DNA from: Lachnospiraceae bacterium
GTDB taxonomy: Bacteria; Bacillota; Clostridia; Lachnospirales; Lachnospiraceae
Length of the DNA: 64,000 bases
Direction of reading: 5' to 3'
Assembly (NCBI GenBank): GCA_024692715.1
Contig: JAILMH010000015.1
Location: forward strand, 1-64,000
Position numbers and translations under genes: made by a program. The notes below the pieces were generated by a model. The model was not told the DNA's origin, did no database searches, and worked only from the letters and a program-made list of their open reading frames with translations. Positions within the stretch are counted from its first letter, which is position 1. The number at the start of each line of letters is the position of its first letter. Of the stretch, positions 9,781 to 64,000 are shown piece by piece.

Positions 9781-11115
9781 ATGATTTCTAAGAGATTGCG
9801 CAAGTCACTGACAGCGCTCCTTACTGCTGCACTTGTTGCTGCGACACTTGTTCCTGTTTCAGCTGCTGAAACGGCAAGTTCTGATTCAGTGAGCACTGAT
9901 TCAGCTATCGAAACAAGTACTGAGGAAGCTGATACAGAGACAGTAAGCGACGCTGATGCTGGAGAGTCAGAAGTCGAAGTAGAGAGCACAGAGGATGAAG
10001 AGGTTGATACTCAGTCTACAAATGCTCAGGTTTCAGGTGTAACAGTATCACTTGATGAGCCAGTATATATGAAGACCGGTTCAGCAATCAAGCCTACACC
10101 ACATGTAACAGTAAGCGGAACAACTGTTAGTGCAGGAACTTATACAGTTTCCTACCACAATAACACTAAGGTTGGTACTGCTGCAGTTGTAGTTAAGGGT
10201 GCTAACAAGGGTGATGTTAAGTGGACAGGTACATATTCTGCATCATTTAAGATCGTTAAGAAAAAGATCAGCCTTTCAAGCAAGGAGATCAAGGTTCTTG
10301 GCGTTGAGGACAGACAGTACACTCAGAGCGGAAACTACAAGCAGGACAATGTAAAGGTTTATTATATCAACCCTGAATCAGGCGATTACACAGAGCTTAG
10401 AGAAGGCGTTGACTATACAAAGACGATTACAGGTACATCTGCTGCAAATAAGAAGAAGATGAAGGTCGTTATCACACCTGCAAGTTCTTCAACAATATTC
10501 AAGGGCAAGAAGACTATCAAGTTCAGAACTTATGATAAGAAGAAGGTCCTTACTGATCCTGATAACATTACAGTAAGCGTTAGCTACAACAATAAATCAC
10601 TTGCTAACTATGAAGCAGTTGATCCTGTATTTAAGAACTCAACAAGCCTTGCACTTACAAAGATCAAGCCTTCAGTAACTCTTACTGATTCTGACGGTAA
10701 TAAGCTTACAGAGGGAACAGATTATAAGGTAACTTATAAGGCAAACAAGAACCCTGGAATTGCTTCTATCGTTGTTAAGCTTAAGAAGTCAGGTAAGCAG
10801 ACATACTATGGCAAGCTTATAAGATACTTCACTATCGAGCCTATCGAGATCACATCTTCTATGGTTACATACTGCCAGACAAAGTCAAGCAGCTACACAT
10901 ACACAGGTGATGAGATCATTCCTTCAATGAAGGTTAAGGTAAAGATCAACGGTAAGGTAAGAACACTTACTCAGGATACTGACTATTATGTTGCTTGCAT
11001 TAACAATGTAAAGAAGAGAAGTGCCTCAGCTACCAACCCTCCAACAGCTTATGTATTTGGAATGGGTAAGTATCAGGGATACATCGGTTCTGACACCTTT
11101 AGAATTAAAAAATAA
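9781..11115 (+). CDS. Secreted surface protein with acidic linker and Ig-like/repeat modules
   Basis: Signal peptide ending VSAAE, Ser/Thr/Glu-rich linker, repeated ..GTxYxVxYxxNxxxGxAxVVVK.. units. Confidence 0.7.
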   Translation: MISKRLRKSLTALLTAALVAATLVPVSAAETASSDSVSTDSAIETSTEEADTETVSDADAGESEVEVESTEDEEVDTQSTNAQVSGVTVSLDEPVYMKTGSAIKPTPHVTVSGTTVSAGTYTVSYHNNTKVGTAAVVVKGANKGDVKWTGTYSASFKIVKKKISLSSKEIKVLGVEDRQYTQSGNYKQDNVKVYYINPESGDYTELREGVDYTKTITGTSAANKKKMKVVITPASSSTIFKGKKTIKFRTYDKKKVLTDPDNITVSVSYNNKSLANYEAVDPVFKNSTSLALTKIKPSVTLTDSDGNKLTEGTDYKVTYKANKNPGIASIVVKLKKSGKQTYYGKLIRYFTIEPIEITSSMVTYCQTKSSSYTYTGDEIIPSMKVKVKINGKVRTLTQDTDYYVACINNVKKRSASATNPPTAYVFGMGKYQGYIGSDTFRIKK

Positions 11116-11136
11116 AATAACTGATCAGTTTTTTGA

Positions 11137-11172
11137 GAAGAGTATTTCCGGATGAAATACTCTTCTTTTTTT
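11137..11172 (+). terminator. Intrinsic terminator
   Basis: gaagagtattt...aaatactcttc 11-bp stem followed by T7. Confidence 0.9.
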
Positions 11173-11182
11173 ATAAGTACGC

Positions 11183-11212
11183 TTGACGTTTGACATATAG
11201 GACATTTATAAT
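11183..11212 (+). promoter_or_regulatory. Sigma-A promoter TTGACG-N18-TATAAT
   Basis: Near-consensus -35/-10 upstream of 11255 CDS. Confidence 0.55.
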
Positions 11213-11254
11213 TATATGGCTAATATTAGATAAAATAAGAAGGAACATTTCATT

Positions 11255-12019
11255 ATGAAGAAATTGTCAGTTGTAGTACCGACATACAATGAAAAGGGTA
11301 ATGTCGAGAACCTTGTTGAGCAGATTGGGGCTGCTCTTAATGGTATTGAATATGAAATAGTTTTTATTGATGATAGTAAGGACGAGACTCCACAAATTCT
11401 TGAACGCCTTTCAAAGGAGAATCCGCACGTAAGATACGAACATCGTGTTGGCGAAACAGGACTTGCTACAGCAGTAATACGAGGCTTTAGAATTGCTGAA
11501 GGTGATTTTCTTGCTTGTATGGACGCAGATCTTCAGCATCCACCGGCTATTTTAAGACCGATGTATGCGGCGCTCCTTTCAGGTGCAGATTTCTGCATTC
11601 CGTCCCGTTTGATTCCAGGCGGAGATGATGGCGGACTTAACTGGTACAGAAAGTTTGTATCAGGCACTGCAAGATGGATGGGTAAGATAGCACTTCCGTG
11701 CCTTAGAAAGATTTCAGATCCGACAAGCGGTCTTTTCATGTTTAGAAAAGAGTGTATCGCCAATGCAGATCTTAGACCGGTAGGCTGGAAGATCATGGTT
11801 GAAGTTCTTGCTATGAGTGAATATAAGAGTGTTATTGAGATACCTTATGCATTCCAGAACAGGACCTCAGGAGAGTCAAAGCTTTCATCAAAGGTTACGA
11901 TGCAGTATCTTGAACAGCTTTGGAAACTTATGTTTCGTGCAACTAAGCGCGGAGGCTACACAGTTACAAAGTGGACCAATGAACACACTGATGAAATGGT
12001 CAAAAAATATATAGGATAA
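11255..12019 (+). CDS. Family 2 glycosyltransferase (dolichyl-phosphate mannosyltransferase-like)
   Basis: [18 protein letters not shown]...MDADLQHPP. Confidence 0.85.
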
Positions 12020-12020
12020 A

Positions 12021-14864
12021 ATGGCTGATTATAGAAAATATATTAAGATCAGAGGGGCGCGTGCCCATAACCTAAAAAATATAAATATAGATATACCGAG
12101 AAATGAGTTAGTGGTGCTTACGGGACTTTCAGGGTCTGGTAAGTCATCGCTTGCTTTTGACACGATGTATGCGGAAGGACAGAGACGGTACATGGAGTCT
12201 CTGTCTTCTTATGCCCGTCAATTCTTAGGGCAGATGGAAAAACCTGATGTTGATTCAATAGAGGGTCTTCCGCCTGCTATATCTATCGATCAGAAATCAA
12301 CTAACAGGAATCCAAGATCTACTGTTGGAACTGTTACTGAGATATATGATTATTTCAGACTGCTTTTCGCAAGAGTCGGAGTTCCACATTGTCCAAACTG
12401 CGGAAAAGTAATTGAAAGACAGACTGTTGATCAGATGGCCGATAGAATCATGAAACTTCCTGAAAGAACACGGATTCAGCTTCTTGCACCTGTTGTAAGG
12501 GGACGTAAGGGAAGACATGAAAAGGTTCTTGAACAGGCTAAAAAGAGTGGATATGTAAGGGTACGTATAGATGGAAATCTTTACGATCTCTCTGAAAATA
12601 TCGTGCTTGAGAAAAACATCAAACATAACATTGATGTTATTGTTGATCGTCTTGTTGTCAAGGCGGGAATAGAGTCCAGACTGACTGATTCGATAGAAAA
12701 TGTTCTTAAGCTTTCAGATGGACTTATGACTGTTGATGTCATCGATGGTGAAGAAATTCATTTTTCTGACAGCTTTTCCTGCCCGGATTGCGGAATAAGT
12801 ATTGATGAGATCGAGCCTAGAAGCTTTTCGTTCAATAATCCCTTTGGGGCGTGCCCGGATTGTGCTGGACTTGGGTATCATATGGAGTTTGATGAAGACC
12901 TTATGATACCAGATAAATCTCTTTCATTTAATGAAGGCTGTGTTCAAGCTATGGGATGGCAGTCAGCAGCAAAGCCCGGAAGTTATACGCATGCTCTTTT
13001 AGAGGCACTGGCGGAACAGTATGATTTTTCACTTGATACTCCGTATGAAGAATTAAGTGATGAAGTTCGAGATATGTTCATAAATGGGACCAAGGGAACT
13101 ATCGTAAAGGTTCATTACAAAGGTAAAAGATCAGAAGGTGTCTATGATGAAGCTTTTGACGGACTTATCAGTAATATGGAACAGCGTTATAGAGAGACTT
13201 TTTCTGAGGCACAAAAGGCAGAATATCAGAAGTTCATGCTTGTAACACCGTGCTCCACATGTCATGGACAGAGATTGAAAAAAACATCTCTTGCGGTAAC
13301 GGTCGGAGATAAAAATATTGCTGAAGTAACATCACTTTCTGCAAGCAGGCTGCTTGATTATATGAATGGTCTTGAGCTTGACGATCATAAGATGATGATC
13401 GGAAAACGCATTATTAAAGAAATCGATAACAGAGTAAGATTTCTTGTTGATGTTGGATTGGAGTATCTGACATTGTCCAGAGCAACAGCGACACTTTCTG
13501 GAGGAGAGGCGCAGAGAATCCGTCTTGCAACACAGATAGGTTCGGGCCTTGTCGGTGTTGCTTATATACTGGATGAACCGTCGATAGGACTGCATCAGAA
13601 AGATAACGATAAACTTCTTGCGGCACTTAAGAGATTAAGGGACCTTGGAAATACTCTTGTTGTGGTCGAGCACGATGAAGATACTATGAGAGAAGCTGAT
13701 TTTCTTGTGGATATCGGACCTGGAGCCGGAACACATGGAGGCACGGTGGTTGCTTCGGGTACAGCAGAAGAGGTAATGGAAAATCCTGACTCCATAACCG
13801 GTAAGTATCTTAAGGGCGAGCTTAAAATAGATGTTCCGGGAACGAGGCGCGAACCGACTGGCTGGATCAAAATTCGAGGAGCGAAAGAAAACAATCTTAA
13901 AAATATAGATGTTGAAATACCGCTTGGAATTATGACAGTTGTTACCGGCGTGTCAGGTTCAGGAAAATCGTCGCTTATAAATGAGATTTTATACAAGAGC
14001 CTTGCAAGAAAGCTGAACAGAGCACTAACCAAGCCGGGAAAACATGATGGAATCGATGGAGTCGAACAGCTGGATAAGGTTATCGATATCGATCAGTCGC
14101 CTATAGGACGTACGCCAAGGTCAAATCCGGCTACTTATACAGGAGTTTTCGATCAGATAAGAGATCTTTTTGCGAATACTGTTGAGGCTAAGGCAAAGGG
14201 ATACTCAAAAGGCAGGTTTTCGTTTAATGTGAAGGGCGGACGCTGTGAAGCCTGCTCTGGTGACGGAATTGTTAAGATAGAAATGCATTTCCTCCCTGAC
14301 GTGTATGTACCCTGTGATGTTTGTCATGGCCAGAGATATAATAGAGAGACCCTTGAGGTAAGATATAAGGGCAAAAATACTTATGAAGTACTTGATATGA
14401 CAGTTGAAGAGGCGCTAGGCTTCTTTGAAAATATCGAGACTATAAGAAGAAAAATACAGACTTTATATGATGTAGGACTTGGATATATCAAACTTGGACA
14501 GCCTTCAACCGAGCTTTCGGGAGGAGAGGCGCAACGTATAAAGCTTGCAACAGAACTCTCTAAGAGAGGAACAGGAAAGACTATTTACATTTTGGATGAA
14601 CCGACTACAGGTCTTCATTTCGAAGATGTCAATAAGCTTGTAAAAATTTTAAGAAGACTTTCTGAAAGCGGTAACACTGTCGTAGTAATTGAGCACAATC
14701 TTGATGTTATCAAGTGCGCAGATTATATTATTGATATGGGACCAGATGGTGGTGACGGAGGCGGAACTGTAGTGACCTATGGTACGCCGGAAAAAGTCGC
14801 AAGAAGCCGTAAGTCATATACGGGAAAGTATATAAAAAAGATGCTCGACCGTGAAAAAAAATAA
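12021..14864 (+). CDS. uvrA: Excinuclease ABC subunit A
   Basis: [20 protein letters not shown], two ABC ATPase domains, CxxC zinc motifs. Confidence 0.98.
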
Positions 14865-49745: not shown

Positions 49746-50387
49746 ATGAAGATCATTATGCTTGGAGCGCCTGGAGCAGGTAAAGGTACACAGGCTTCCA
49801 GAATTGCTGAAAAATTTGGTATTCCGCATGTTTCTACAGGAGATATCTTCCGTGCAAACATTAAAAACGGAACTGAACTTGGCAAAGAAGCAAAAAAGTA
49901 TATGGATCAGGGCCAGCTCGTTCCTGACGAGTTGACAGTTAAGATTCTGCTGGACAGAGTTGCACAGGATGATTGCAAGAACGGATATGTTCTTGACGGA
50001 TTCCCACGTACGATTCCTCAGGCAGAGGTACTTGATTCTGAGCTGACAAAGCTTGGCACAAGCGTTGATTATGCAATAAATGTGGAAGTGCCTGATGACA
50101 ACATCATAGGAAGAATGTCTGGCAGACGTGCTTGTCTCAAGTGCGGTGCAACATATCATATTGTTACTCTTAAACCTAAGAAAGAGGGAATCTGTGACAA
50201 ATGTGGCAGTGAACTCGTTCTCAGAGATGACGATAAACCGGAAACTGTAAAAAATCGTCTGAGTGTATATCACGATCAGACACAGCCGCTCATCGATTAT
50301 TATAATAAGAAGGGCGTGCTCAAAGAGGTTGATGGAACAATTGCTCCGGACGACGTATTCAAAGCAATCGAAGAGATATTAAAGTAA
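49746..50387 (+). CDS. adk: Adenylate kinase
   Basis: MLGAPGAGKGTQASRIAEKFG; DGFPRT; zinc Cys4 lid. Confidence 0.98.
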   Translation: MKIIMLGAPGAGKGTQASRIAEKFGIPHVSTGDIFRANIKNGTELGKEAKKYMDQGQLVPDELTVKILLDRVAQDDCKNGYVLDGFPRTIPQAEVLDSELTKLGTSVDYAINVEVPDDNIIGRMSGRRACLKCGATYHIVTLKPKKEGICDKCGSELVLRDDDKPETVKNRLSVYHDQTQPLIDYYNKKGVLKEVDGTIAPDDVFKAIEEILK

Positions 50388-57620: not shown

Positions 57621-58379
57621 ATGTTAAAGTTAGCAATTTATGGAAAAGGCGGAATAGGAAAATCAACGACGACTGCGAACCTCGCGGCCGCCTTTTCTCT
57701 ATTAGGGAAAAAAGTAATACAGATCGGATGTGATCCAAAGGCGGACTCTACAATGAATTTGCTTGGTGGAGAACCTGTTGGCTCAGTTATGGATTACATG
57801 AGAAAAAATGATGCTCTGCCGGAAGACTACCATGAAGTTGTAAAGGAAGGATTCGGTGGAGTTCTTTGTATAGAAACAGGAGGTCCTACACCGGGGCTTG
57901 GCTGTGCCGGAAGAGGAATCATTACAACATTTCATCTTCTGGATGATCTGGAGCTTTTTGAAAAGGAAAAGCCGGATGTGGTTTTGTATGATGTTTTGGG
58001 AGATGTTGTCTGCGGCGGCTTTGCAGCCCCTATAAGAGAGGGTTATGCAGAGCAGGTACTAATAGTCACATCAGGAGAAAAAATGGCTCTGTACGCTGCG
58101 AGAAATATCAATGAAGCGGTAAATAATTTCCAGGACAGGGGATATGCAAAGGTTCGAGGAATCATTTTGAACCATAGAAATGTTAAAGATGAAAATGCAA
58201 AAGTAGAAGCGTTTGCGAAGGAAAATGGGCTCAATGTGATCGGAGAGATCCCTCGAAGTGATGATATTATTTTTTATGAAGAAGCAGGAAAAACAGTAAT
58301 AGAGGGAGATCCTGAGCTTGAAGTGAGCAGGCACTATATTGAGCTTGCAAAGAAATTATTGGCGGAGGATGCACAATGA
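57621..58379 (+). CDS. NifH/BchL-family nitrogenase iron protein-like reductase
   Basis: [28 protein letters not shown] (C95) and [12 protein letters not shown] (C131) Fe-S ligands. Confidence 0.93.
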
Positions 58380-60706
58380 GCAATGGAGCTGTCTGCTATA
58401 CCGTAAAAGAGCTTTCAGAAAGAAATGATATTCCCTCAGAATTTACACTGTCATCGCATCTGATCTATAGTTCACCGGCCACACTTGCATATAATTCTCC
58501 GGGAGCAAAGGGGTTTGGCGTTAAAAGAGCAGGACTTTCTGTTCCGGATTCGGTGATGCTTATAATTTCTCCTGGATGCTGCGGACGAAATACATCAGAA
58601 CTCAGTAATTTGCCGCAGTATAAAAACAGATTCTTTTATCTTACCATGAGTGAGACAGATCTTGTTACAGCAAGACATTTAACGAGTATCCCGAAAGCCG
58701 TAAAGGGAATACTGGAAAGTCTGAATAAAAAGCCTTCGGTTGTAATGCTTTGCGTTACCTGCGTAGATGCCCTGCTTGGCACAGATATGGATAGGGTTGC
58801 AAAGAAATGCGAGGAACAGTGCGGTGTCAGGGTAAGACCATGCTATATGTATGCGCTGACAAGAGAAGGGAGAAAACCGCCGATGGTGCATGTCAGAGCA
58901 TCGATCTATTCGCTTTTGGAAAAGAGACGGCGTCGCAGTAATGCGGTCAATCTTCTCGGATTTTTTGCAAATCTTAATGACTCATCGGAATTATATGACC
59001 TTCTGAAAAGTTCAGGAGTTAAACATATTCGAGAGATCTCACGATGTGAAAATTATGAAGCCTTTGAGGAAATGGCTGAGGCAAGCTTTAACGTGGTCTT
59101 AAATCAGGAAGCACGGCATGCGGCGGATGAATTGTCAGAAAGACTTGGACAGCCTTATATAGAGCTGAAAAGGTTCTACAGTGCGGAACGTATACATCGC
59201 CAGTATAGAGCTTTTTTTAATGCGATAGGATCTCAGGTGAATGATGATGAATTTTTTGAAAAAGCTAAAGCAGCTGAGAAAGATTTTTCTGAAAAATATA
59301 AGGGATTGAAAGTATCGATCGGAGAAAGCGTCAATGCAGATCCTTTTGAACTTGCATTTTCGCTCGCCTGCCTAGGTGCTGAGGTCAGAGAGATCTTCGG
59401 CGTGGTTACAGGCGAAGCAATGGTATGGATAAATAAACTTGCGGAGATAAGTCCTGAAACAAAAGTATATTGTAATCAGGACCCGTCAATGCTGCATTAC
59501 GAGTCGGGGAATTCAGAAGTTGATCTGACTATCGGTAAAGATGCATCGTACTATCACCCGGAAACAAAGCATCTTTTATGGAATGAAGATGAGCAGCCGT
59601 TTGGATTTGATGGTCTAGTCAGGCTTCTTAAAGCAATAGCTGATACTGTGAAAAGTTCCGCAAGCAAGGAAAAATCAAAGACTGAAACAGAAATAGAAGT
59701 AAAAGATGAATTAAAACTCACTGAAAGCGGAAATATAAGAGGCTTTAGAAGAGTTCTGACACCTTTTGCACCGGACCAGAGCGGCGCAGTCTCATATGTT
59801 TACAGTAAGGGCGGAATGATAGTTATCATTGACGCAGGAGGCTGCACAGGAAATATATGTGGGTTTGATGAGCATCGCTGGGTAAGTGCAGGAATGGGTG
59901 CGAGAACAGCAGTATTCAGCGCCGGTCTTAGGGATATGGATGCTATTCTCGGACGAGATAAGGAGCTTGTCGAAAAGCTCAGTTCAGCGGCGGAAGCTAT
60001 AAAACCGAAATTCATAGCTTTGATCGGAACTCCGGTGCCTTCAGTGATCGCAACAGATTATATGGCGCTCAAACGTATGAGTGAAAAGTCATGCGGAGTT
60101 AAAACGATCACTATCCAGACAAATGGCATGGAGCTCTATGATAAGGGAATAGAGCGTGCTGCCGGGGCAATCGGGTCTGAAGCAATAAGCAGTGGAGATA
60201 TGGTGGGGTTCACACCGATGGATTTTGCAGAATTCAGAGAGGATGATGTGAAAGAAGCGTGGAAGGCTGATAAAGCGGCAGATATTCTTGCATTGTCTCC
60301 TGCAGTACTGAAGGTTGTTCGTGAAGTTTGTAAAAATAAAGGACTTTCGTATGAATATGGATTTCCGAAGGCTGGTGAATGGCTCGAGAATGTGCCGGAT
60401 TTATCCGGAAAGAAAGTTCTTATAGTGCATCAGCAGGCTGCAGCGCATTCTTTGAGAAAAGAGATCGAGAAAAGATATCGTGGAACGGATGTTACCGTGG
60501 CTTCATTTTTTATGATGGATAGTGAGTATAAGCGGGAACAGGATGTAAAACTGAAAGAAGAGTATGATCTAACGGACCTTGCAGGACGTGAAAATTACGA
60601 TGTCATATTTGCAGACCCGATAATGAAACCCCTTGTGAAGACAGAATGTGAATGGATAGATATGATGCATTTTGCGGTTTCAGGGCAGAGACCGGAAGGA
60701 ACGTGA
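58376..60706 (+). CDS. Nitrogenase component 1-like protein with two tandem NifD/K-type domains in one 776-aa chain
   Basis: N-half SPGCCGRNT and [13 protein letters not shown]; linker [20 protein letters not shown]-half [16 protein letters not shown] and [20 protein letters not shown] overlap with NifH-like gene. Confidence 0.8.
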
Positions 60707-60709
60707 GAA

Positions 60710-63019
60710 ATGGAAACACGTAGATTAAGAGTTCATGGTATCGTTCAGGGAGTGGGATTCAGGCCTGCAGTAGCGCGTTTAGCTGCAAAATATAAATTAA
60801 CCGGCAATGTAAGCAATAGAGGACCTTTCGTAGAAATTTTCCTACAGGGGGAAAGCAGTGCAATAGATGAGCTGAGCTTGGAGCTTCGTGAAAATTCCCC
60901 TGAAAGAGCTGAGATCATAAGAATCGAAGAAGAACATATAGAGGCTTCGAATGTTTATGATACTTTTTCTATAGTTGAAAGTGAAAAAACCACCGGAGAA
61001 ATTTACATTCCGCCGGATATAGCTATATGTGAAAAGTGTGCAGAGGAACTTTTTGATCCAAAGGACCGGAGGTATCTTCATCCATTCATTAACTGTACTT
61101 CATGCGGGCCAAGGCTTACCATATTAGAGCATTTGCCATATGACAGGGAGAGGACTTCGATGAAGCATTTCCCCATGTGTGAGAAATGTGCAGAAGAGTA
61201 TAGATCACCAAAATCTCGAAGATATGATGCGCAGCCTGTCTGCTGTAATGATTGTGGTCCGGAAGTATATGTGCTTGAAAAAAACGGAGATATAAAGATT
61301 AAAGGCTCTGCAGCGATCCTTAAGGTAAGAGAAGTTTTAAGAAATGGAGGAATAGCTGCTGTCAAAGGGATAGGCGGTTTTCATCTTTGCTGTGATGCTT
61401 CAGATGAGGCAGCGGTCAGGCTTTTAAGACAGAGAAAACATAGGCCGGTAAAGCCGTTTGCAGTTATGGCGGCAGATGAAAAAGCTGTAAGACGCATAGC
61501 AAGGGTAGAACCGGAAATGGAACCCGTTCTAAAAGGGCATCAGAAGCCGATAATTTTAATGCGGCGGCTTAAAGATTCCGGACTTGCAGATTCATTATGC
61601 CCGGGAAATCCCAAAATAGGTATAATGCTTCCGTATACACCGCTTCACATGCTGCTTTTTAAATACCCGGATGGTAAAACTTTTCCCGGGACTTTAGTTA
61701 TGACAAGCGGAAATGTTTCAGGAGCACCGATATGCGTGAGTGATGATGAAGTACTTCGGGAACTGTCGGGATTTGTTGATATCATACTTTCACATGATAG
61801 AGAAATATTGACGCGTGCTGATGATTCCGTGATGGATTTTTACAGGAAAAAGCCATATATGATAAGGCGTTCGCGAGGGTATGCTCCGCTTCCGTATCAG
61901 ATCTCATCCATAACTGAAGGTGAGGTTCTGGCCGTTGGAGGTGAGTTAAAAAATACGTTTTGCATCGGCAAAAATGGCTTGATGTATCCCTCGGCATATA
62001 TAGGGGACCTTGCCGATGTAAGGTCTCTTAAGGTTTTAGAAAAGACTGCAGATAGAATGAAGGATATGCTTGAAAGCAATCCTGAGATCGTTGCCTGTGA
62101 TCTTCATCCGGCATATCATTCCACAGAATTTGCAGAGAGTATCGGAAAAGAAGTTTTTAAGGTTCAGCATCATTATGCACATATTCTTTCGTGCATGGCT
62201 GAAAATGATGTTTCAGAAAAGGTGATCGGTGCGGCCTTTGACGGAACAGGATACGGAACGGACGGAAATATCTGGGGCGGTGAACTGCTGCTGGCAGATC
62301 CGTATGGCTTTAAGAGAGCCGGAAGTATTGTGCCGTTCAGGCAGGTCGGAGGAGATGGAGCTTCGAAAGCCGGATGGAAAATAGCAGCTTCGATGATAAG
62401 CTCACTTTACGGTAAGGAAGCAGCTTCAGAAATTGTAGAAAATCTGCATATTACGGATAGGGTACAGCTTAATGTTATAGCCAAAATGGCCGAAAAAGGA
62501 CTTAACACAGTGACTTCGACCAGTGCAGGAAGGCTTTTTGACGCGGTCAGTGCTGTGCTTGGAATAGTGAGAGAATCTACTTTCGAAGGAGAAGCTTCAA
62601 CAGCACTTCAGTATACTGCAGAAAGATGCAAAAACCGTGATATAATTCAACTGCCGGAGCTTATTACTGAAAACAATGGATTTGTAAATATCAGGACAGA
62701 TAATATTTTCAGGCAGATAGTGGAGGACAGATCGTCCGGTATGCCGATAGAAAAATGTGCGTATGAATTCCATGCATGGCTTGCAGAGGGAATTTCAGAA
62801 GCATTGATCAGAATAAGGAATTTGTCAGAGATAAATATTGCCGCTTTAAGCGGAGGAGTATTTCAGAATACGCTGCTGCTGGGACTTGTTGAAGCAAAGG
62901 CAGAGGCAGCGGGGCTTAAAGTGCTTAAGCATAGTCTTGTTCCGCCTAACGACGGAGGGATAGCTTTAGGACAGGCATTTGCGGCAGCAGCTAAGCTGCA
63001 GCAGAGAGCGGAAAGATAA
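60710..63019 (+). CDS. hypF: Carbamoyltransferase HypF
   Basis: Acylphosphatase domain GIVQGVGFRPAVARLA, two Cys4 Zn motifs, YrdC-like domain, Kae1-like domain VQHHYAHILSCMAEN. Confidence 0.96.
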   Translation: METRRLRVHGIVQGVGFRPAVARLAAKYKLTGNVSNRGPFVEIFLQGESSAIDELSLELRENSPERAEIIRIEEEHIEASNVYDTFSIVESEKTTGEIYIPPDIAICEKCAEELFDPKDRRYLHPFINCTSCGPRLTILEHLPYDRERTSMKHFPMCEKCAEEYRSPKSRRYDAQPVCCNDCGPEVYVLEKNGDIKIKGSAAILKVREVLRNGGIAAVKGIGGFHLCCDASDEAAVRLLRQRKHRPVKPFAVMAADEKAVRRIARVEPEMEPVLKGHQKPIILMRRLKDSGLADSLCPGNPKIGIMLPYTPLHMLLFKYPDGKTFPGTLVMTSGNVSGAPICVSDDEVLRELSGFVDIILSHDREILTRADDSVMDFYRKKPYMIRRSRGYAPLPYQISSITEGEVLAVGGELKNTFCIGKNGLMYPSAYIGDLADVRSLKVLEKTADRMKDMLESNPEIVACDLHPAYHSTEFAESIGKEVFKVQHHYAHILSCMAENDVSEKVIGAAFDGTGYGTDGNIWGGELLLADPYGFKRAGSIVPFRQVGGDGASKAGWKIAASMISSLYGKEAASEIVENLHITDRVQLNVIAKMAEKGLNTVTSTSAGRLFDAVSAVLGIVRESTFEGEASTALQYTAERCKNRDIIQLPELITENNGFVNIRTDNIFRQIVEDRSSGMPIEKCAYEFHAWLAEGISEALIRIRNLSEINIAALSGGVFQNTLLLGLVEAKAEAAGLKVLKHSLVPPNDGGIALGQAFAAAAKLQQRAER

Positions 63020-63029
63020 GGAGAAAGAT

Positions 63030-63242
63030 ATGTGTGTCGGATTATCAGCAAGAGTATTAAAGGTCAGTAATGGAACAGCTATCATTGACGCATCAGGAGC
63101 TAAAAGAAGTGTTTCATCAGAACTTATCGCAGATCTTGAGCCGGGAGATTATGTTATGGTCCATGCAGGATCTGCAATTGCTAAAATAACGGATGATGAT
63201 GTAAATGAATCAGATGAGTTGATGAAGGAGTTCATGAATTAA
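63030..63242 (+). CDS. hypC: HypC/HupF family maturation chaperone
   Basis: MCVGLSARVLKV...DLEPGDYVMVHAGSAIAKI; between hypF and hypD. Confidence 0.88.
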   Translation: MCVGLSARVLKVSNGTAIIDASGAKRSVSSELIADLEPGDYVMVHAGSAIAKITDDDVNESDELMKEFMN

Positions 63243-64000
63243 TGACAGAAGAAGTAAAGAAAGGCATCGAGTTCCTTAAAAATTATGATGGTAAGAAGCT
63301 TAGGATAATGGAAGTGTGCGGAACCCATACGCATGAGATTTTTCGTCTTGGGATCAGAAAGCTTCTTTCTGACAAAATAGAACTCATTTCGGGACCGGGA
63401 TGTCCGGTGTGCGTTACACCTGCAGGGTTTATCGACAGTGCGGTAGAGCTTGCGCTTGATCATGGTGTGACTATATGTACCTTTGGAGATCTTGTGCGTG
63501 TTCCGGGTTCTGAGACAAGCCTTCAGAAGGCAAGGGGGATTGGTGCAAAGGTCAAGGTGGTATATTCTCCGCAGGACGCCGAAAAGTACGCTGAGGAGCA
63601 TCCTGAAGAGGAAGTGGCTTTCCTTTCAGTTGGCTTTGAAACGACCACGCCCTCTTCATGCATTGCTGTAAGGGATGCCGAGGCAGCGGGGATAAAGAAT
63701 TTTTCTCTGGTCACAGCAAATAAGACCATGCCGGGGGCATATGAGGCCATGGCGGATTATACAGATATTTATTTATATCCGGGACATGTCCATGCGATAA
63801 CAGGCCTTAAGGACTGTGAGGACATGCTTAAAAAAGGAATGAGTGGCGTTGTGGCCGGCTTTACGGCGTCTGAGCTTATTTCAGCACTTGCGATAGCTGT
63901 AAAGAAGTATCAGAGCGGAGAGCCGTTTCTTGTAAATGCATACCCAAGAGTTGTAACAGAAGAGGGAAGTCTGAAAGCAAAAGAACTGGTAGAGCATTAC
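63242..64000 (+). CDS. hypD: Hydrogenase maturation factor HypD (truncated by window end)
   Basis: RIMEVCGTHTHEIFRLGIRKLL; GPGCPVCVTP; no stop before 64000; TAATG overlap with hypC. Confidence 0.95.
   Translation, partial: MTEEVKKGIEFLKNYDGKKLRIMEVCGTHTHEIFRLGIRKLLSDKIELISGPGCPVCVTPAGFIDSAVELALDHGVTICTFGDLVRVPGSETSLQKARGIGAKVKVVYSPQDAEKYAEEHPEEEVAFLSVGFETTTPSSCIAVRDAEAAGIKNFSLVTANKTMPGAYEAMADYTDIYLYPGHVHAITGLKDCEDMLKKGMSGVVAGFTASELISALAIAVKKYQSGEPFLVNAYPRVVTEEGSLKAKELVEHY

Follow-up and report, generated by a model that had tools for sequence, protein, structure and literature searches.

A NifDK-like fusion protein of a gut-type bacterium, encoded in one operon with hydrogenase maturation genes, is probably, judging from sequence comparisons and gene content, part of a hybrid Nif-Hyp-Hyd pathway in which the diiron H-cluster of [FeFe] hydrogenases is assembled independently of HydG. 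HydG supplies the Fe-bound CO/CN unit to HydE and HydF delivers the finished diiron site; to our knowledge, the CO and CN ligands of all well-studied [FeFe] hydrogenases come from HydG acting on tyrosine. HypCDEF, for their part, build Fe(CN)2CO. With confidence only a little better than even, we also favour a wider reading, namely that a complete tyrosine- and HydG-independent H-cluster biosynthesis has been assembled from Nif, Hyp and Hyd parts, in which NifEN-like complexes would convert a Hyp-made Fe-cyano-carbonyl into the HydE substrate, and that this system would be widespread in Clostridia of several families, where HydG would have been displaced more than once. The features in and beyond the window (the whole stretch of 64,000 nucleotides that was analysed) are collected in Table 1.

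Table 1. Features of the operon, with positions counted from the first nucleotide of the contig.
Feature	Position	Strand	Basis and remarks
nifH-like gene, ATP-dependent Fe protein, 252 aa	57621..58379	+	PF00142, E 4.7e-88
NifD/K (NifE/N)-like single-chain fusion	58376..60706	+	776 aa; two PF00148 stretches; whole-length Foldseek match 9i0g_A
N-terminal D/E-like domain of the fusion	58376..59650	+	invariant C68, C69, C126, C129, C156
Charged linker, about residues 426-455	59651..59740	+	low model confidence; most relatives are two genes, split here
C-terminal K/N/BchB-like domain	59741..60703	+	invariant C490, C495; GTPVP replaces third Cys motif
hypF, carbamoyltransferase (cyanide ligand synthesis)	60710..63019	+	TIGR00143, 750 bits (cut-off 466); all domains in Pfam
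hypC, begins MCVG	63030..63242	+	TIGR00074, 60.7 bits (cut-off 48)
hypD	63242..64000, continuing to contig position 64288	+	TIGR00075, 238 bits, counting only the portion inside the window
hypE	64316-65320, same contig past the window		405 bits
hydE	65335-66414, same contig past the window		HydE TIGR03956, 554 bits (cut-off 254.6)

The operon reads nifH-like, NifDK-like fusion, hypF, hypC, hypD, hypE, hydE. The last four bases of the nifH-like gene overlap the start of the fusion (ATGA), the gaps between called frames downstream of the fusion range from -41 to +27 bases (the largest overlap being due to an upstream start picked for hypC), and rplM and rpsI, named from sequence, lie 3' of hydE. 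The nifH-like product finds its best NCBIfam match in nifH at 306 bits, under the cut-off of 394, and carries the P-loop GKGGIGKS together with both Cys motifs. HypF, HypC, HypD and HypE all exceed their curated cut-offs; HypE ends in PRIC and HypC starts with MCxG in every copy collected, so that the Hyp enzymes for cyanide synthesis appear intact. Neither hypA nor hypB was recognised in the operons, which hold the nickel-free half of the Hyp set only. No RNA element exceeded the Rfam thresholds between positions 50000 and 64000, and promoters and terminators were found no more often than in shuffled sequence. It is likely this hypFCDE-hydE context, to which the original prediction had not linked the protein, that carries the meaning of the fusion.

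The source genome encodes one group A [FeFe] hydrogenase with all three canonical H-cluster motifs and one group B protein. A [NiFe] large subunit was not found there (PF00374 gave no match), nor was HydG, for which the sole match was the HydE of the operon itself (72 bits against a cut-off of 312), and no HydF exceeded its cut-off in this draft, which is 90.5% complete. A second NifH-D-K trio is present as separate genes on another contig (locus L019 on C39, 672-5296). This trio lies near genes for a PFL2-type glycyl radical enzyme and PduB/EutM-like microcompartment shell proteins on the opposite strand.

To examine how the fusion is distributed relative to the hydrogenase genes, we compared 150 genomes of the same family plus the source genome, eight of which carry the hyp-linked pair. 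HydG exceeded its cut-off in none of these eight carriers, hypD was found in all of them and HydF in seven, i.e. in all but the source genome. Among the HydF-containing genomes, HydG was present in 0 of 7 carriers versus 70 of 78 others (Fisher p 1.3e-6, with relatedness ignored and with a partial HydG match under the cut-off in G047 counted as present). Among the hypD-containing genomes, a [NiFe] large subunit was present in one of eight carriers versus 14 of 15 others (Fisher p 2.5e-4, relatedness again ignored), a difference that arises partly by construction because carrier status was itself assigned by orthology to the hyp-linked pair; the only carrier with a [NiFe] enzyme, G069, has an additional hypD gene located elsewhere. 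The sample includes drafts, which can miss genes, and absence from it is never proof. A HydF tree, which serves as a partial control for kinship, placed the carriers in at least three backgrounds, including positions inside HydG-type clades, and contained one large carrier clade. The HydF of G124 groups with HydG-type HydF (support 0.96) and those of G091 and G136 fall inside a mixed, mostly HydG-type clade (support 0.92). Such a scatter over several HydF backgrounds is as expected of functional replacement.

Against HydG replacement stand five genomes that have HydF, lack HydG and contain no detectable homologue of the fusion (G011, G114, G122, G128 and G142). Two of the five are less than 90% complete, and the HydF of G142 (locus L130) falls inside the carrier clade; G122 (L129) and G114 (L131) still stand as exceptions. 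The lack of a HydF above its cut-off in the source genome likewise speaks against the proposed pathway. ThiH-like matches of about 190 bits, considered as a possible hidden HydG, were set aside: they score under the cut-off, occur also in genomes with HydG, and are absent from G000 and G069. A third kind of pair occurs with an importer in G048, which lacks HydG and has no other kind, and together with HydG in the importer-type genomes G072 and G143, so that loss of HydG cannot be predicted from the mere presence of a PF00148 pair. It is the hyp-linked pair that predicts it in the 150-genome sample. A member of the source genus (G079, 99% complete) has hypD and a short PF00374-like match, with no [FeFe] hydrogenase and no homologue of the fusion, which makes the system patchy within the genus.

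A class-wide search of 391 genomes recovered strong orthologues in three more families. Genes at the loci of these relatives were labelled by blastp against representative proteins, several of them confirmed with NCBIfam models, and the HydE, HydF and TM1266 representatives tested exceeded their curated cut-offs. The relatives add a second NifHDK-like set, hydF and TM1266, and one of them also hydA: at locus L101 a single plus-strand run reads hydA-nifH-D1-K1-hypF-hypC-hypD-hypE-TM1266-D2-K2-hydF-hydE. Four loci from one genus of another family (L095-L098) read nifH-D1-K1-hypFCDE-(TM1266)-D2-K2-hydF, with TM1266 seen in L095, L096 and L097 and not detected in L098, and with hypC and hypD of L096 not recovered by a simple ORF picker. 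Both trios accompany hyp, hydE, hydF and TM1266 at L094 and hyp at L092 and L093; L020 and L022 have similar neighbourhoods. No hydG was recognised in the carrier runs examined, and standard hydG genes were found adjoining hydE and/or hydF at L112, L113 and L125.

The pair orthologous to the fusion (pair 1) adjoins hypF and the second pair (pair 2) adjoins hydF. A single nifH was seen per locus in the genus of L095-L098 and at L101, suggesting that one reductase may serve both pairs. In a variant at three loci (L028 of G117, L108 of G376 and L031 of G134), NifHDK proteins of the second-pair type occur with a FecB/FecCD/FecE importer and hydF, without hyp and without pair 1; hydE and TM1266 are also present at L028 and L108. 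Genome searches of G117 and G134 found neither HydG nor hypD. As the importer variants of G117 and G134 also lack HydG, Hyp is not the only partner, and pair 2 is the more constant element. What Hyp and pair 1 produce elsewhere may here be taken up through the FecBCD-type importer.

HydG is missing from the sampled carriers, which have HypFCDE and ATP-driven NifEN-like complexes instead; on the most economical interpretation, it is these that supply the Fe-CN-CO unit. HypF and HypE would make cyanide from carbamoyl phosphate, and HypC-HypD would hold the iron and put together an Fe(CN)x(CO)y unit in the manner of [NiFe] maturation, where HypC-HypD build Fe(CN)2CO (PMC6886295). The NifH-like protein would pass ATP-driven, low-potential electrons to the two NifEN-like pairs, which would act as scaffold and reductase, making CO and/or converting the unit built by Hyp into the iron synthon for which HydE usually depends on HydG. 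HydE and HydF would then complete the diiron site, and we infer that the H-cluster is the product. The positions of pair 1 next to hypF and of pair 2 next to hydF suggest a split of partners, in which pair 1 (here the fusion) would work beside Hyp and HypCD and pair 2 beside HydF, handing over to HydE/HydF. As to which pair makes CO, which is the scaffold and what the intermediate is, any single assignment is speculative, and we would sooner bet against each version than for it. If this reading is right, the system occupies the same place in the pathway as HydG, a radical SAM tyrosine lyase, as the source of Fe-bound CO and CN for HydE/HydF, although the NifEN-like and Hyp proteins are unrelated to HydG, which is absent in every sampled carrier. 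It likewise resembles HypCDEF-dependent [NiFe]-hydrogenase maturation in its full hypF-C-D-E set with intact motifs, but differs in that seven of the eight carriers lack a [NiFe] large subunit and no hypA or hypB was recognised in the operon.

A narrower version of this explanation, which is no alternative to HydG replacement, would have the nitrogenase-like pairs only make CO (e.g. by reducing CO2) or recharge a redox step, while HypCDEF and HydE/HydF do all of the synthon assembly. It is in keeping with the known handling of C1 substrates by nitrogenase proteins and with the standing question of where anaerobic Hyp systems obtain their CO. We regard it as rather unlikely, however: one pair adjoins hypF and the other hydF, and the retention of both, each with its own Cys set, points to more than a single generic source of CO. 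Quite improbable, in our estimate, is that some other enzyme receives a separate Fe-CN-CO cofactor from the NifHDK-like and Hyp proteins, and that HydE and HydF are encoded nearby for reasons of regulation. In several genomes, including the source genome, the second trio and some of the maturases are indeed unlinked, but HydE, HydF, TM1266 and once hydA share the same run in several genera, HydG is missing from all sampled carriers, and we recognised no further conserved enzyme in the clusters that could be the target.

An H-cluster route through Nif-like and Hyp proteins would touch on earlier work at several points. The link between Nif-like proteins and hydrogenase maturation is not new in outline, since the available text of Dos Santos et al. 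(2012; PMC3464626) describes NifHEN-like genes beside unspecified hydrogenase maturation genes and proposes a possible role in metallocluster assembly. The NifHEN-like proteins of Coprococcus catus and Dorea longicatena in that text resemble those described here in forming two linked sets and in having a single Cys in the N/K-like subunit, and their genes are likely true orthologues; unlike the present account, the same available text does not mention HydG, HydE, HydF or Hyp by name, or a D-K fusion. In the part of the open-access literature searched, we found no report of HydG replaced by nif-like and hyp genes, of the absence of HydG from carriers, of Hyp without a [NiFe] hydrogenase, of the hydA-to-hydE cassette or of the fusion. 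In a defined in vitro system, no activation took place when HydG was left out (PMC3457958), and about 1% activation with HydE and HydF alone has been discussed (PMC9431212). A second natural route, if true, would change the picture of H-cluster biosynthesis, extend the function of HypCDEF beyond [NiFe] enzymes, assign a role to nitrogenase-like proteins of an orphan branch, and put right how hydrogen metabolism is annotated in those gut and rumen Clostridia that seem to be deficient in HydG; it would also open to testing the notion that the original task of nitrogenase-like proteins was to build metalloclusters.

The fusion itself is one open frame that starts with ATG and has no internal stop. 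Pfam places PF00148 on it twice (135.8 bits, E 2.5e-39, best stretch residues 47-425), and a genome scan gave 104.9 bits for the N-terminal half (58514-59650) and 33.7 bits for the C-terminal half (59903-60502), both against a cut-off of 28.6. These two profile matches bear out the original prediction of two such domains joined by a charged linker, across which a structure model falls below pLDDT 50 (residues 428-467). The further claim that the halves form a D/K-like pseudo-heterodimer within one chain gains support from the same matches, from orthologues in which the halves are separate genes, and from a whole-length match of the chain to holo-GmNifEN, a natural NifEN fusion (9i0g_A; Foldseek E 2.2e-23, 14% identity). 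The N-terminal domain aligns with NifEN chain B over 353 residues (Z 23.6, rmsd 4.0), and the C-terminal half folded alone is closest to BchB (Z 17.7, rmsd 3.9, 280 aligned). Structure models built from 9- and 6-row alignments reached mean pLDDT values of 70 and 74, but most of the cluster loops scored under 50.

The cysteines C68, C69, C126, C129, C145, C149, C156, C490 and C495 all lie where they had been placed, but the C-terminal half, said to have only the last two, also contains C573, C652 and C758. These three are not conserved, so that claim holds for conserved residues: all 11 orthologues compared share C68, C69, C126, C129, C156, C490 and C495, and C145 and C149 recur in 2 of 11. C129 aligns with the Cys of the NifE motif NTCVPALIGDD, and the sequence GTPVPAVIGTD of the C-terminal half aligns with the same motif, with Pro where NifE has Cys. 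The view of this half as degenerate did not survive comparison, as GTPVP is invariant among the C-terminal halves of the orthologue group (group motif GTPVPxxI) and a related motif, xPxPxxxxxD, recurs in paralogous K-like proteins; we are dealing with a conserved feature and not with decay. In the paralogous second pair the invariant set comprises three Cys in D and one in K, and three plus one is the pattern of NifEN and BchNB. The asymmetric P-cluster-like site that had been proposed is plausible as a cluster site of this 3+1 type, in which C68/C69, C129 and C490 would form one interface [4Fe-4S] site and C126, C156 and C495 would be extra, pair-specific cysteines. The FeMo-co ligands are Cys275 and His442; in our alignment no His of the fusion falls in the NifE-type FGYAG region, where P-F-G stands at residues 408-410.

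By score the fusion belongs to none of the NifDK, NifEN, CfbD or DPOR families. NifE is the best named NCBIfam model, at 85.3 bits against a cut-off of 505, and the scores are likewise below cut-off for bifunctional NifEN (45.7 vs 1229), N2-ase-Ialpha (45.7 vs 486), nifK (11 vs 427), CfbD (30.9 vs 268), BchB (35.7 vs 490) and BchN (28.1 vs 420). It is like the FeMo-co assembly scaffold NifEN in its two PF00148 domains (on a single chain, as in GmNifEN), in the match of C129 to the NifE Cys motif and in its predicted use of a NifH-like reductase, and unlike NifEN in the extra invariant C126, C156 and C495 and in its place in a hydrogenase-maturation operon rather than a nif operon. To DPOR BchNB and CfbCD it is similar in fold, the C-terminal half being nearest to BchB, and in its putative 3+1 style cluster site, but it misses their equivalog cut-offs and has another gene context. 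These low scores and the lack of recognised tetrapyrrole genes in the operons leave a metal- or tetrapyrrole-reducing enzyme of the CfbCD/DPOR kind, with no tie to hydrogenases, very improbable in spite of the weak Cfb and Bch family matches and the BchB-like fold. We give practically no credence to a nitrogen-fixing enzyme or an ordinary NifEN, to which PF00148 and PF00142 membership and the NifE match point, since the NifE score is so far below its cut-off and the only PF00148 genes in the source genome are the fusion and the second D-K pair.

The single chain, considered as the key novelty of the protein, turned out to be only mildly special. Four of the first 11 loci compared are fused (the window, L005, L006 and L034) and seven are split, with the halves encoded by neighbouring, often overlapping genes, and a natural NifEN fusion has already been solved. 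In trees the fused members do not form one clade: the split L007 is sister to the fused L006, and the fused L034 lies elsewhere, indicating that fusion or fission occurred more than once. A further divergent NifDK-like pair, found at L033 (G124, contig C249) and L105 (G417), branches near pair 1. A fusion of another kind is encoded at L094 of G358 (10708-12804), where a NifH-like protein is joined to the second D-like subunit in one chain of 698 aa.
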